Source: Pseudalkalibacillus sp. SCS-8 (GTDB taxonomy: Bacteria; Bacillota; Bacilli; Bacillales; Fictibacillaceae). From it: a DNA stretch of 64,000 nucleotides. The DNA lies in the NCBI RefSeq assembly GCF_040126055.1, contig NZ_CP143541.1:1364001-1428000 (forward strand). Reading direction: 5' to 3'. The position numbers and the translations under genes are program-made. This document shows positions 8,279 to 12,540 of the stretch, piece by piece; within the stretch, counting starts at the first letter, position 1; each line of letters starts with the position of its first letter. The notes below the pieces were generated by a model. That model saw only the letters and a list, made by a program, of their open reading frames with translations, made no database searches and was not told the origin of the DNA.

Positions 8279-9631
8279 ATGGAACAAATGGAGGATTACG
8301 AGTTTCAACATGTCATTGATGCATTGGACAGGGAGGACATTGATCAGTTTCGTGCCGATTTTCTCGACATGCATCCATATGACCAAACGAGACTCTTTAG
8401 GGAACTAGGTGATGAACAACGTATCCGTTTATATGGATACCTTTCACCTGAGGAAATGGCTGAGATATTTGAGAATATTGACATAGAAGACACAAAGGCA
8501 TACTTATTCGAGATGCAGCCGTTTTATGCGGCTGAAATGCTCGGTGAGATGTATGCCGACGATGCTGTAGACGTGTTGAATGATCTCGAGGCTGAACAGC
8601 TAGCCAGTTATTTGACGATCATGGATGACGAGGCTGCTCAAGAAATCAAAGAGTTGCTTCATTATGAGGAAAAAACGGCCGGAAGTATCATGACCACCGA
8701 ATTTGTGTCGATTCGTGCCCACCAAACAGTAGTGGAAGCGATGCAAATCTTGAGGAAAGAAGCACCGGACGCCGAAACGATTTATTATGTGTTTGTCGTC
8801 GATGAAATGAAGAAGCTTGTCGGAGTCATTTCATTGAGGGATTTAATCATAGCTGATGAAAACACTTTCGTTTCGGAGGTCATGAATGATCGAGTCGTAT
8901 CCATTTCGGTGGGGGAAGACCAGGAAGAGGCGGCGCGCATGATGAGAGACTATGACTTCCTTGCTCTACCCGTTGTTGATTTCCAGAACCATTTATTGGG
9001 AATCATTACAGTCGATGATATTGTCGATGTCATCGATGAAGAAGCATCTGAAGATTATTCCAAACTTGCCGCAGTATCCGATATGGACACCGTCGACCGA
9101 AATCCGATGCAGGCAGCGAAACGGAGACTGCCATGGTTGATCATCCTGTTATTCTTGGGAATGATAACCGCAAGTTTAATCGGACAGTTTGAAGATACGA
9201 TCAACCAAGTCGCTATACTCGCAATCTTCATTCCGCTGATTGCAGGAATGGCAGGAAATACCGGGACTCAAGCACTGGCAGTAGCCGTCAGAGGAATTGC
9301 AACAGGAGAAACAGATAAACAAGATTTGAAAAGTCTCATCCTCAGAGAAGCCGGCACTGGTTTGATTACAGGAACAACCTGCGGAGTTGTCATTACCGTA
9401 ATCATATACTTATGGCAAGGTTCGATTCATCTCGGTCTTTTGGTAGGAGTCTCCATACTCCTTACATTGATTGTCGCGACACTTGCTGGTGCTTTAATAC
9501 CGTTGATGATGCATAAGATGAAAATCGATCCTGCGGTTGCATCCGGACCATTCATCACAACCATTAATGATATCATCAGTGTTCTGATCTATTTCGGAAT
9601 GGCGACTGCCCTCATGAAGTACCTTATATGA
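8279..9631 (+). CDS. mgtE: Magnesium transporter MgtE
   Basis: Mg2+ channel/transporter of 450 residues with the normal order: MgtE_N superhelical domain (~20-130), paired CBS domains (~135-260, starting at AGSIMTTEFVSI) and a five-helix C-terminal membrane domain with GNTGTQALAVAVRG, the pore signature. The cytosolic domains close the pore when Mg2+ is plentiful. GAGAGGGGG precedes the ATG. Stands alone with its own promoter and a bidirectional terminator. A second Mg2+ transporter (CorA) is at 38.8 kb. Confidence 0.95.
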   Translation: MEQMEDYEFQHVIDALDREDIDQFRADFLDMHPYDQTRLFRELGDEQRIRLYGYLSPEEMAEIFENIDIEDTKAYLFEMQPFYAAEMLGEMYADDAVDVLNDLEAEQLASYLTIMDDEAAQEIKELLHYEEKTAGSIMTTEFVSIRAHQTVVEAMQILRKEAPDAETIYYVFVVDEMKKLVGVISLRDLIIADENTFVSEVMNDRVVSISVGEDQEEAARMMRDYDFLALPVVDFQNHLLGIITVDDIVDVIDEEASEDYSKLAAVSDMDTVDRNPMQAAKRRLPWLIILLFLGMITASLIGQFEDTINQVAILAIFIPLIAGMAGNTGTQALAVAVRGIATGETDKQDLKSLILREAGTGLITGTTCGVVITVIIYLWQGSIHLGLLVGVSILLTLIVATLAGALIPLMMHKMKIDPAVASGPFITTINDIISVLIYFGMATALMKYLI

Positions 9632-9637
9632 AGAGGC

Positions 9638-9684
9638 TAAAAAAAAACCTTTGGAGACCGTGAAACGGCACCAAAGGTTTTTTC
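9638..9684. terminator. Bidirectional terminator between mgtE and the M50 gene
   Basis: AAAAAACCTTTGG pairs with CCAAAGGTTTTTT, giving a T-run on both strands. Serves mgtE (plus) and the RiPP-like operon (minus). Confidence 0.85.
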
Positions 9685-10873
9685 AGTCTACTTGAACGGA
9701 ACGCTTGTCTTTCATGAAATTGTATTTCGTCCTTGCTCCTTTGAGCCATAACAACCCATTTACGATTGAAATGGTGACAATAAGCAGCCCGTCCCAAAAA
9801 TAGAAGCTATTCAACTCATTCTGAGAGATTTGATGGAAGGTATTCGTAGCTACTGTGTAAAAACCAGGTGCAGAGTAAAAGACGAACAGAAGGATAGCGA
9901 TACTTGCACCAATAGCATACAATCCTGTAAAGACTTGTACATAGTTTCGTTCAACTTGGTTCAGTTGTTCACGTAATGGGATTTCGCCGTGATTGATTCC
10001 TAATCTTTCTTTCAAAAAGAGTTTCGCATAATCATGTAAACCTGGAACATTAATCATATTCATAAGAATGTAGTAAAGATCCGTCCGTAAGAAAATCAGA
10101 CAGTGCCATCCGAACCTGAAAACTAAGATGAAAGCTGTCAGTTCCATTAGTTGTGGATAAAAAGCAGGGTTGGATAATTGAACAATCAACGCGATGAACA
10201 ACATGATTCCGTCAAAGAACATTCCCCCAAGATAAGGAATGTACCTCTGATTCTTTGGAATGGACCAAAGTCCTGTCATATCCGCTTCAACGACAAGCCA
10301 ATATAATCGTAAGCTCAATCGGAAAGTAACCGGTATCCCGAGTCTGACTGCAGCGAGATAGTGACCGATTTCGTGGAGAATAGTCAGTCCCCAGGATAAA
10401 ACAAAAAGTACCAAGAGGCTAAGGCCCATGGATTCAAATACGAACATATCTTCATAGGATGGTAACAATGCAGGCTTATAGATAAACAAACCGATACACG
10501 ATAAAGATAAGATCACATAGAGGGGAATTGTGATCGGGTTATAAAAGACCATTCCTAATCTCTTCACGTTTTCATTGAATGGAACCGAAGTATTTTCTGC
10601 TTCTTCACAAGCTTCCCCATCAATTTCTGCAACGAGACCGATCTCCTTAAGATCAGTTACAAACTCACTAACATCCACATCGATCTCTCTTTTTTGGAGT
10701 TGGGTTGTAATTTCCTCGATGGTGTTTGTACCATCCAAGAGCTCGATGATTGCTACGGCCTCATAAGGAACTCGTATGAACGTACCTGTTATGGAGGAAC
10801 CAACTGTATATTCATCTCCATCCTTCTGGACAGAGAGATCGACAGTCACTTTTGATTCAGGGGTAAGTATCAT
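9683..10873 (-). CDS. M50-type membrane zinc metalloprotease with PqqD-like N-terminus (peptide maturation)
   Basis: 396-residue membrane protein. LTILHEIGHYLAA is an HExxH zinc site in a transmembrane segment, as in site-2-protease relatives annotated as putative peptide zinc metalloproteases (the YydH class that matures the YydF peptide in B. subtilis). The first ~90 residues (YEAVAIIELLDGTNTIEEI, then LKEIGLV) have the winged-helix look of PqqD/RRE domains that bind RiPP leader peptides. Multiple hydrophobic segments lie on both sides of the zinc site. The ATG begins one base after the ThiF-like gene's stop, so the two are probably translationally coupled. Inferred role: cleavage and perhaps export of the modified peptide at 12189-12251. 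Confidence 0.75.
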   Translation of the reverse strand: MILTPESKVTVDLSVQKDGDEYTVGSSITGTFIRVPYEAVAIIELLDGTNTIEEITTQLQKREIDVDVSEFVTDLKEIGLVAEIDGEACEEAENTSVPFNENVKRLGMVFYNPITIPLYVILSLSCIGLFIYKPALLPSYEDMFVFESMGLSLLVLFVLSWGLTILHEIGHYLAAVRLGIPVTFRLSLRLYWLVVEADMTGLWSIPKNQRYIPYLGGMFFDGIMLFIALIVQLSNPAFYPQLMELTAFILVFRFGWHCLIFLRTDLYYILMNMINVPGLHDYAKLFLKERLGINHGEIPLREQLNQVERNYVQVFTGLYAIGASIAILLFVFYSAPGFYTVATNTFHQISQNELNSFYFWDGLLIVTISIVNGLLWLKGARTKYNFMKDKRSVQVD

Positions 10874-10874
10874 G

Positions 10875-12023
10875 TTAAACGACTTCTCTTTCCTTTTTTG
10901 ATATGGTCAATAACGTTTCTAAATCTACTGGCTCTCCTGCTTCAGGAGTCCTGCTCCCACAGGTTGGACAATCATCGTGTTTTTCCCAATTGGTAATGGA
11001 TGTCATCTGATAGGTGATCGTATCCAATTCATAAGTTGAGGAGTGGGGAGTACGATCCGCGAATCCTCCCAGATGCTTTGCGATCTCATTTGTTAATAGA
11101 CCGGTCAAAATTGCGACATTAGGTGGATAAGCTGTATTCCGCTTCTCAAAAGAAACCCCATAGACAGACTTCAACTGGTGCTCGAATTCGCTGCTTTTTC
11201 GAAGTGAATCAATCAAACTACAGTCGTAACAGCCACCTTCATCAGAGATAAACTTCTGCCAAAGGATTGTTTTGTTTCCTAATCCACCTTGGAGGAAAGG
11301 CTTACGATTCTTCACGCATGCAAAATTGACCCATCTCGTTGAGAGGATAGTAGGTTGATCGATTCCATTCACGATGATATCTGCTTGTTTGACCAGTTCA
11401 TCAATGCAGCTCGCGTTTACCACTTTTAAGTTATGTACTTCAATTTCTATGTCCTTATTGATTTTTTTTAGACGTTCTCCGGCTGCTACTGTTTTCAGCG
11501 TTCCGATTTCATCTTCTGAATAAAGGAACTGTCTGTTCAAGTTGCTTAGTTCTACCGTATCGTAGTCCAGCCCGATGATCTTGCCGACACCTAATCCAGC
11601 AAGGCTTGCAGTCAGCATACTGCTTCCGCCGAGACCCAAAACGAGCACGGTCGAATCCTTCAATCTTTCCTGAAATACGTATTTATTTGTTTGGAGATCA
11701 GCAAAATTGGAATAGTAATTGATGTTCGCTCGATACCGTTCCTGGTCATGATCACTCAAGGTAGCGATTCTCGTCCCATCGGCATCTTCTATTAGTTTAT
11801 GTTCATCCAATTCTTCGATCATATCCATGACTTCCTGTTCGGAAACTTGGTGTTCAGCAGCAATATCAGTAATGGATTTTGTACCATCGAGGGAATGTAG
11901 AATTTTTCTGATGGTTCCGTCTGCATCTTCAATCTCAAGGCTGCCGTCCTCTAAACCGATTTGAATTTTATCTTCTTGTTCAATGATTGGGGTATAAATC
12001 ACTTTAAATAACGGTTTCAACAC
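10875..12023 (-). CDS. ThiF/MccB-like adenylyltransferase with PqqD-like N-terminus
   Basis: E1-type enzyme of 382 residues that would adenylate a peptide C-terminus. The nucleotide-binding loop GLGGSSML and the following LDYDTVELSNLNRQFLYS are the hallmark ThiF blocks; GGCYDC and DCPTCG give a CxxC...CxxC zinc site. The first ~100 residues (IRKILHSLDGTKSITDIA, ELDEHKLIED) look like a PqqD/RRE leader-binding domain. TTG start at 12023 with AGGAGG 7 bases upstream. No ThiS or MoaD partner and no thiamin or Moco gene is nearby, so a vitamin-pathway role is unlikely; a microcin C MccB-like role on the adjacent 20-residue peptide is the best inference. Confidence 0.78.
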   Translation of the reverse strand: MLKPLFKVIYTPIIEQEDKIQIGLEDGSLEIEDADGTIRKILHSLDGTKSITDIAAEHQVSEQEVMDMIEELDEHKLIEDADGTRIATLSDHDQERYRANINYYSNFADLQTNKYVFQERLKDSTVLVLGLGGSSMLTASLAGLGVGKIIGLDYDTVELSNLNRQFLYSEDEIGTLKTVAAGERLKKINKDIEIEVHNLKVVNASCIDELVKQADIIVNGIDQPTILSTRWVNFACVKNRKPFLQGGLGNKTILWQKFISDEGGCYDCSLIDSLRKSSEFEHQLKSVYGVSFEKRNTAYPPNVAILTGLLTNEIAKHLGGFADRTPHSSTYELDTITYQMTSITNWEKHDDCPTCGSRTPEAGEPVDLETLLTISKKEREVV

Positions 12024-12062
12024 ACTTCCTCCTCATTGAAAAATATATGTCTGTAAATGAAA

Positions 12063-12162
12063 GTAGAAGGGCCAGTCCGATATGCCGTACTCTCCATTGT
12101 TGATTTATGTAAAAAAACGATGCTGGAGTGGAGTTTGGCTTGAGTCGGATAGTCCCTTCTAC
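12063..12162. promoter_or_regulatory. Long imperfect inverted repeat between peptide gene and ThiF-like gene
   Basis: GTAGAAGGG at 12063-12071 and its complement at 12154-12162, extended inward by TCCGA on both arms after a few mismatches, with smaller pairing (ACTCTCCA-like against TGGAGT) inside. A T7 run lies inside on the minus strand. It could be an attenuator, processing site or transcript-stabilising structure setting the ratio of peptide to enzymes. It matches no T-box or other leader I can recognise. Confidence 0.5.
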
Positions 12163-12188
12163 ATGGATCCATTTAAGTTATTAATGGA

Positions 12189-12251
12189 TTACCAGTTGTG
12201 ACGTACAAGTGGTACTAGCTTTTCAACTTTTTTGATTTTGATCTTTTTCAT
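12189..12251 (-). CDS. 20-residue peptide, candidate RiPP precursor
   Basis: Encodes MKKIKIKKVEKLVPLVRHNW. The lysine-rich first half would be the leader and VPLVRHNW the core (inference). Evidence that it is translated: a near-perfect AAAGGAGGG 8 bases before the ATG and a consensus promoter (12322-12350) directly upstream. It is followed on the same strand by the adenylating enzyme and the metalloprotease, both with leader-binding-like domains. Too short for routine annotation. It could instead be a regulatory leader peptide. Confidence 0.6.
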   Translation of the reverse strand: MKKIKIKKVEKLVPLVRHNW

Positions 12252-12283
12252 AAAAAGTCCCTCCTTTATGTAAAGTTTCAAAA

Positions 12284-12310
12284 TTCTATATCTTTTGTAA
12301 AAATATAGAA
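12284..12310. promoter_or_regulatory. Perfect 8-bp inverted repeat in the peptide gene leader
   Basis: TTCTATAT at 12284-12291 and ATATAGAA at 12303-12310 around an 11-base centre. It lies just downstream of the -10 element, a position suited to a repressor operator or a 5' UTR hairpin. Confidence 0.45.
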
Positions 12311-12321
12311 CTTATATATTT

Positions 12322-12350
12322 ATAATATTTTAAAAACTTACACATTTCAA
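12322..12350 (-). promoter_or_regulatory. SigA-type promoter for the peptide operon
   Basis: On the minus strand TTGAAA (12350-12345), 17-base spacer, TATTAT (12327-12322). Very AT-rich surroundings. Places the start of transcription about 60 bases before the 20-residue peptide. Confidence 0.6.
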
Positions 12351-12540
12351 TATATTTCTTATAAAATCTCCAAAATATTTTTCGACACCTATATTATTAA
12401 ATATATTTACATTTTGATGGTGGGTTTTCTTATCGCTTTTCCCTGGTCCTCATTTGGAAAGTATGTAACAATCGAGGTCAAAAGGTGTGTAAAACAGTTG
12501 ACTATTTCAATGGAATAATCAATTGGACAGGGAGGTTGTT

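Follow-up and report, generated by a model that had tools for sequence, protein, structure and literature searches.

A precursor, RRE-ThiF and RRE-M50 cassette of Bacillales: a candidate uncharacterised subclass of ThiF-like-adenylyltransferase RiPPs

ThiF-like RiPP enzymes have come under study only recently, and from one activation step they give rise to very different products. The known RRE-ThiF enzymes adenylate the carboxylate of their precursor, which is then captured by a nucleophile to give a phosphoramidate (MccB), a bicycle (PaaA), a thiolactone (GrcB), an indolylamide joining Trp-4 to Ile-1 (IndF) or, in the case of EnfB, what is proposed to be a backbone imide with residue -3 taking part (PMC12150305, PMC12250964). 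In EnfB, residue D225 has been proven essential (PMC12250964). A precedent for the maturation of a Bacillus RiPP by an M50 protein is EpeP, which cleaves the epipeptide and is thought to export it (PMC10885120); a partial parallel with YydFGH had been drawn in an earlier, sequence-only reading of the DNA studied here. We analysed a stretch of 64,000 nucleotides from Pseudalkalibacillus sp. SCS-8 (hereafter the window), which contains a peptide gene followed by genes for a ThiF-like enzyme and an M50 protease. Our best reading is that this trio represents an uncharacterised subclass of ThiF-like-adenylyltransferase RiPPs. The sequence-only reading did not recognise the combination as characterised; the exact combination, like any subclass with an RRE-bearing M50 partner, was indeed not found in the main texts of the open literature searched, although it may be a numbered, uncharacterised cluster of the ThiF-mining studies, while the parent class, the RRE-ThiF RiPPs (GrcB, EnfB, IndF, PaaA, MccB), is known.

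The cassette consists of one operon on the minus strand, whose limits (9683-12251) had been given exactly by the sequence-only reading, and the genes of the two enzymes follow that of a 20-aa peptide (Table 1). On either side lie ORFs that, read by eye, we take to be mgtE (8279-9631) and a KefB-like antiporter gene (from ~12541). In six of the seven congeners compared these two genes are separated by a gap of ~15-75 bases, the seventh having no antiporter gene, and it is this junction that the cassette occupies in SCS-8. Flanking repeats were not evident by eye at the junction in the congener sequences compared. The cassette itself contains no transporter, immunity or sensor gene; no radical SAM gene was found beside the trio among the ORFs read by eye, and no thi or moa genes lie near it.

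Table 1. Features of the cassette and of its two enzymes (positions in the window)
Feature	Position	Strand	Remarks
Whole cassette	9632..12540	.	sits where most congeners join mgtE straight to the antiporter gene
Inverted repeat, A/T-flanked, between the converging mgtE and M50 genes	9640..9685	.	seen in the sequence; absent from the list of a simple terminator scan
RRE-M50 membrane metalloprotease (predicted)	9683..10873	-	396 aa; starts right past the ThiF stop
D265, third-ligand candidate	10079-10081	-	invariant
HEIGH zinc-binding motif	10361..10375	-	residues 167-171
N-terminal RRE of the M50 protein (predicted)	10610..10873	-	~residues 1-88; PqqD match, hhalign, model pLDDT 58-89 (blocks of 10), Foldseek
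RRE-ThiF adenylyltransferase (predicted)	10875..12023	-	GTG start, 382 aa
SNLNRQ ATP-binding motif	11529..11546	-	contains R164
N-terminal RRE (winged-helix) of the ThiF protein	11769..12023	-	~residues 1-85; aligned with PaaA residues 6 onward
Long imperfect hairpin in the precursor/ThiF gap	12063..12162	-	z -3.7 in the window
Precursor peptide gene, MKKIKIKKVEKLVPLVRHNW	12189..12251	-	ATG start, 20 aa; leader ~residues 1-12, variable core ~13-20
TTACATA motif	12267..12273	-	22 nt before the start codon
Sigma-70-like promoter candidate, TTGAAA-17-TATTAT	12322..12350	-	upstream of the peptide gene; consensus match, not above shuffles

The trio was looked for in genomes of the family (34) and of the order (397), from which the loci were then fetched. 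Among the latter, 17 contain ThiF-M50 pairs, and 13 Bacillales genera share the gene order precursor(s)-ThiF-M50, which bears out the earlier view of a RiPP-like trio. For instance, Metabacillus indicus (L010, same genome as L046) encodes MKKIKIKKVEKLVALVNHHA ahead of a ThiF protein 51% identical and an M50 protein 46% identical to those of the window, in the same order. At E 1e-50, the 398 genomes of a phylum-wide search contained no such pair beyond the order. A distant pair was noticed on a Streptomyces plasmid (L105); no precursor was recognised at that locus. The ThiF and M50 trees are congruent in all main groups, here called A (window-like) to D, each of which carries its own cores, and both are discordant with the host families. 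Groups A, B and C are all represented in the family of the window, yet the window's closest kin come from a different one (f44), a distribution that argues for horizontal spread. Judged by its sequences, the cassette is compact and mobile. A phage or prophage origin was considered and rejected: M50 relatives are absent from viral contigs, the ThiF protein gave three weak partial matches, none of them in phage records, and in PHROGs a single family of unknown function is similar to it. An E1-E2 defence system was likewise rejected, having yielded weak partial matches only.

The precursors combine a conserved leader with a variable core. In the seven group A loci, which belong to four genera, the first 12 residues (MKKIKIKKVEKL) are identical, and the differences found in the corresponding codons are all synonymous, apart from one ATG/TTG change of the start codon. 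Because of this, leader and core can be told apart as conserved and variable, and the precursor is, by its codon pattern, under purifying selection. The cores of this group are VPLVRHNW, VALVNHHA, APLAVHNA, APLANHYA and VPLICHYR. Group B has the leader MKI(E/K/V)V(K/R)KxE(K/Q)L(K/T/A)PT and ends such as YVPYAG, VIPYGG, ILVPPPYGG, QYRPPHTS and IDMWYPYLS; group C, on the leader MKIxAKKVEK, includes MDAELCPGLGSC, RDMELCMGSPVC and VAAGCCCCCGCC, with MDQVNV on a similar leader, and comprises relatives with Cys-bearing cores; group D carries MKKIVVRKLxTVxVPQLRPGT in three copies, and one further core, ETPAQVRSAGF, stands outside these groups. Loci of groups other than A hold from one to five tandem precursors with differing cores. 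The other ThiF-M50 pairs read are all preceded by a related leader save two: L091, whose arrangement is divergent, and the Streptomyces pair (L105), at which no leader-bearing micropeptide was found. Hence the expectation that the peptide would be conserved beside homologous enzyme pairs is borne out, while that of a conserved RHNW-like C-terminus is not: the last 6-10 residues change as a block from clade to clade, and the final residue is Trp, Ala, Arg, Gly, Ser, Cys, Thr, Val or Phe, and never Asn, in the relatives read. Only position -3 is constant in the cores of groups A and B: it is occupied by His or Tyr in 17 of 17 distinct cores, a pattern rather than a statistic since related species share history.

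The ThiF protein matches the Pfam ThiF family with an E value of 1.2e-44, and the nearest solved structures to its profile in the PDB are MccB (1.1e-48) and PaaA (2.1e-45), as the description "MccB-like" had anticipated. The PaaA alignment starts at PaaA residue 6 and extends past the RRE into the ThiF fold, so that the protein consists of an N-terminal RRE fused to a ThiF/E1 domain, as in the RRE-ThiF RiPP enzymes. R164, K177 and D222 are invariant in an alignment of seven ThiF sequences, and their spacing is identical to that of R167, K180 and D225 in EnfB; with the Arg, the Lys and the Mg-binding Asp intact, the enzyme is predicted to be active in adenylation. The adjacent short precursor, with its conserved leader and variable core, also fits this class on sequence grounds. 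Four invariant cysteines (C265, C268, C352 and C355) are compatible with the structural zinc site of the superfamily. The AlphaFold models, built from two-sequence alignments, are too poor for both catalytic domains; the low-confidence model of the ThiF protein (pLDDT 47) also ranks MccB first.

The M50 protein matches the Pfam families PqqD (2.2e-4; 21.9 bits, just below the cut-off of 23.4) and Peptidase_M50 (0.018), and the latter family, though weak in the window protein, is matched by all six of its relatives. H167, E168, H171 and D265 are invariant among the relatives aligned. An HExxH motif with a distal Asp in a membrane protein is what is expected of an M50 (site-2) protease, and points to an intact zinc-protease site. 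The M50 RRE aligns with that of the ThiF protein in hhalign (91% probability, residues 39-85 to 41-85). This N-terminus was modelled by AlphaFold with fair confidence, the catalytic part not confidently, and the top Foldseek matches of the N-terminal model are RREs, several of them leader-bound (lasso B1, TbiB1, TruD, a LynD-type heterocyclase, PbtF and PqqD), and belong to lasso, cyanobactin, thiopeptide and PQQ systems. None of these matches passes E 0.001, and in VIA several RREs superpose with Z ~7 and an rmsd of 2.6-2.7 (~80 residues), a few non-RRE folds doing as well or better; therefore the fold match is support rather than proof that the N-terminus is a PqqD-like winged-helix RRE. Given the RRE that profile and fold comparison indicate at each N-terminus, both enzymes appear built for reading the same leader. 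The assignments to the M50 proteases and of PqqD-like N-termini to both enzymes, made from the sequence beforehand, are thus upheld. The daptide M50 model NF041824 scores 22.4 bits against this protein, far from its cut-off of 300.

Other genomes show what these enzymes may be combined with. A Niallia relative of the ThiF protein has a WWIII-type, enterofaecin-like precursor (MKKVTVRRATKVEATTWWIII) and adjoins the A+B clade with weak support (81/86). Further ThiF relatives (L015, L107, L109 and L110) are paired with MFS or ABC transporters and have no M50 partner, and for this reason the M50 protease seems to stand in for a transporter. The closest M50-only relatives, RRE-M50 proteins that form a sister group and have no ThiF partner, are encoded beside CWWC micropeptides and MASE12 sensors, an arrangement that by its gene content looks like a signalling system.

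As for expression, the peptide gene had been credited with a strong ribosome site and a strong promoter. The ribosome site, AAAGGAGGG, is present ahead of its ATG; the strong promoter is not borne out, since promoter-like sites are rarer in the region (5, one of them upstream of the peptide on the minus strand) than in shuffles (7.6). The TTACATA motif is also found 37-44 nt before the first precursor in the other A loci and in three loci of the PYGG type (B). In the upstream regions (<=250 nt) of 19 loci it occurs 10 times against 1.0 expected from shuffling, in 9 of the 19 loci, compared with 1 against 0.9 on the opposite strand. A Spo0A-box-like TGTCGAA lies upstream in 2 of the 19. The gap between precursor and ThiF gene contains a hairpin, of unrelated sequence, in nearly every relative (z mostly -2 to -9), a layout that suits a partial terminator by which the precursor is made in excess of the enzyme. 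The inverted repeat downstream is a probable two-way terminator by its sequence. No known RNA element was found in the locus.

It is very probable that the trio makes a small modified secreted peptide, and we think it probable that this is an RRE-ThiF (ThiF-like adenylyltransferase) RiPP whose C-terminus is adenylated and captured intramolecularly and whose leader is cut by the M50 protease. In the ThiF protein, the RRE would bind the basic leader KKIKIKKVEKL and the ThiF domain would adenylate the C-terminal carboxylate of the precursor; the acyl-adenylate may then be captured within the peptide, yielding a small C-terminal ring or another C-terminal modification. By analogy with the characterised enzymes, C-terminal adenylation followed by intramolecular capture is the economical expectation, and a fairly likely one. 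The exact linkage is not readable, and the cross-links of characterised ThiF enzymes are not transferable, because the window's core has neither Cys nor Glu and lacks a Trp at -4. His or Tyr at -3 would be the leading candidate to act as the capturing group or to assist catalysis; His-acyl products are labile, which counts against this explanation. The M50 protein would bind the same leader via its own RRE, cleave it at or within the membrane and probably release the short modified core outside the cell, and such a release would account for the missing transporter gene. We infer C-terminal activation and cyclisation, the cleavage site, export and any bioactivity, as competition agent or signal. 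A more specific version, a transporter-less three-gene RiPP subclass in which two RREs read one 12-residue leader, the ring is closed through the side chain of His/Tyr -3 and the M50 protease both cleaves and secretes, is rather doubtful; a ring of this kind was not found reported for the ThiF-like RiPP enzyme family.

With regard to role only, and compatibly with the RRE-ThiF RiPP reading, the trio may make a modified pheromone for a receptor elsewhere in the genome, a suggestion that we regard as tentative. Pherotypes typically combine a fixed leader with hypervariable cores, an immunity gene is absent, and the neighbours of the closest M50-only relatives point the same way. Nevertheless, the cassette lacks a sensor, its product could equally be an antagonist, and MASE12, absent from 16 of 16 trio genomes tested, was rejected as the receptor of the trio. 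It is improbable that the product is instead a peptide-nucleotide Trojan horse, with AMP (or CMP) left on the C-terminus by the ThiF protein and the leader trimmed by the M50 protease before export: MccB is the best PDB relative of the ThiF protein, and a microcin C precursor of 19 residues is known from Bacillus (PMC12250964), yet MccB chemistry needs the C-terminal Asn that the family lacks, and the cassette has no mccC-like exporter, mccE or mccF. The parallel with microcin C proposed from the sequence stands for the enzyme; membership of that system is not supported. There is an equally slim chance that the peptide is a reusable carrier of the pearlin type, on whose C-terminal residue the ThiF protein builds and from which the M50 protease frees a modified amino acid, as TglG and TmoG do with scaffold peptides (PMC10885120); there is no PEARL or tailoring enzyme, the clade-wise covariation of the precursor ends is as expected of a peptide product, and in several species as many as five precursors, differing in their cores, are retained. 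Finally, that the protein is a thiamin or molybdenum-cofactor enzyme and the peptide incidental, which would have undone the sequence-only reading, has only the ThiF domain in its favour and is excluded for practical purposes, as the NCBIfam ThiF/MoeB models all score far below cut-off (105.9 vs 275 bits), the genome has, by names read by eye, its own ThiF/MoeB homologue between thiG and thiD in the thi operon plus a TcdA-like protein, and the surroundings of the cassette lack such pathway genes.

The family is compact, its peptides are cheap to synthesise, several core groups occur on one leader, and the protease to which the modification is coupled has a recognition domain to match. Being compact, with short peptides and matched RREs, it makes three questions directly testable: what picks the group that captures the acyl-adenylate, whether an M50 protease can do the work of a transporter, and whether a leader is passed by two RREs from one enzyme to the other.

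Compared with the described systems, the cassette shares different elements with each. Daptide clusters show a weak whole-length likeness of their M50 protein to ours (22 bits), and the other daptide enzymes are absent; the core Cys and radical SAM enzymes of the GRC thiolactone RiPP are not found either. The resemblance to microcin C (MccA/MccB) lies in MccB, the closest solved structure family (E 1e-48). The cassette differs in having a C-terminal Trp instead of Asn, a longer leader and no nucleotide-tailoring, export (MccC-type) or immunity (MccE/F-type) genes, its flanks being mgtE and the KefB-like gene. PaaA of pantocin A (PaaP/PaaA/PaaB) aligns across both RRE and ThiF domains (E 2e-45), but the cassette has no Glu-Glu core, follower peptide or PaaB, and has an M50 protease. 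In the epipeptide system of B. subtilis (EpeX/EpeE/EpeP, YydFGH) a small modified peptide is likewise matured, and presumably exported, by an M50 membrane protease, whereas the modifier is a radical SAM epimerase, not found in the trio, rather than a ThiF protein, and an immunity transporter (EpeAB) is present. The indolylamide cluster of S. pneumoniae (IndA/IndF/IndP) has the same minimal set of precursor, RRE-ThiF enzyme and zinc protease and makes by adenylation a C-terminal macrocycle, which for the present cassette is only proposed; it differs in its M16 protease (IndP), its transporter and its NWYFI core with Trp at -4, of which the cassette has neither the core nor the M16 protease. Enterofaecin (EnfA/EnfB) possesses a set of four transporters in place of an M50 protease with its own RRE, and the WW(I/V) end of its core (WWIVI/WWIII), absent from the cassette, recurs in the Niallia relative; in both systems a precursor of ~20 residues with a short basic leader accompanies an RRE-ThiF enzyme with equally spaced Arg, Lys and Asp adenylation residues.

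A peptide of about 20 residues, MKIRKLKK(I/V)KxTCWWC with a hypervariable tail, was observed at loci (L057-L104) encoding relatives of the window M50 protein without a ThiF gene. The peptide gene lies directly upstream of the M50 gene in 35 of 43 such M50-only loci, and membrane sensors of the MASE12-HD or MASE12-histidine-kinase type adjoin it in 41 of the 43. The M50 proteins at the CWWC-peptide loci belong to the same family as that of the trio (precursor, RRE-ThiF adenylyltransferase and RRE-M50 protease). Among the genomes tested, MASE12 was present in all four with the M50-only CWWC system and was found in none of the 16 with trios. Peptide, M50 protein and MASE12 sensors constitute an apparently uncharacterised system, separate from the trio; this system looks like peptide signalling with pherotypes.

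Positions and sequences of the features discussed
Feature	Location	Description
Inverted repeat	window 12284-12310	TTCTATAT ... ATATAGAA; within the AT-rich stretch separating promoter-like site and precursor
M50-only examples	L057:5041-7588; L059:3525-7444; L102:5013-7494	
Group D trios	L094, L099, L100	three identical precursors, MKKIVVRKLxTVxVPQLRPGT, with RRE-ThiF and RRE-M50
Micropeptides	L107, L015, L110	MSLKMETIKNKAALLGGVPG; MVRKTVIKSSVAGLGLEG; MKIRKLSNKQVSKTAVEPR

In L094, the one group D locus read whole, a gene for an oligopeptide-binding (SBP_bac_5) protein separates ThiF from M50 and an MFS-like protein is also encoded, together hinting at peptide re-uptake or immunity. The precursor of L119 (genome G467), MKIKAKKVEKIKPTVAAGCCCCCGCC, combines the trio type of leader with a core consisting of a cysteine run. 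Strongly divergent ThiF-M50 pairs occur at L101, in G139, a genome with two different trios, and at L105, on a plasmid of Streptomyces sp. NBC_00464. These two cluster together in both the ThiF and M50 trees, on long branches, and their clustering may be an artefact.

The inverted repeat upstream of the window precursor is a possible operator. In the congener G005 (L121), the antiporter gene found downstream of mgtE in congeners appears to have been lost, a start-like remnant, ATGGAAGAGACTGA, being all that represents it.

At L107, L015 and L110, RRE-ThiF relatives accompany micropeptides, and MFS or ABC transporters are present instead of M50. ThiF relatives are present on Salmonella plasmids too (matches H10-H13). 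RRE-ThiF and MFS genes also occur on a Pantoea plasmid (L109), with a 17-residue peptide, MKFTKFNASNATLAAVG; this layout resembles that of pantocin A, but the peptide has no Glu-Glu core.
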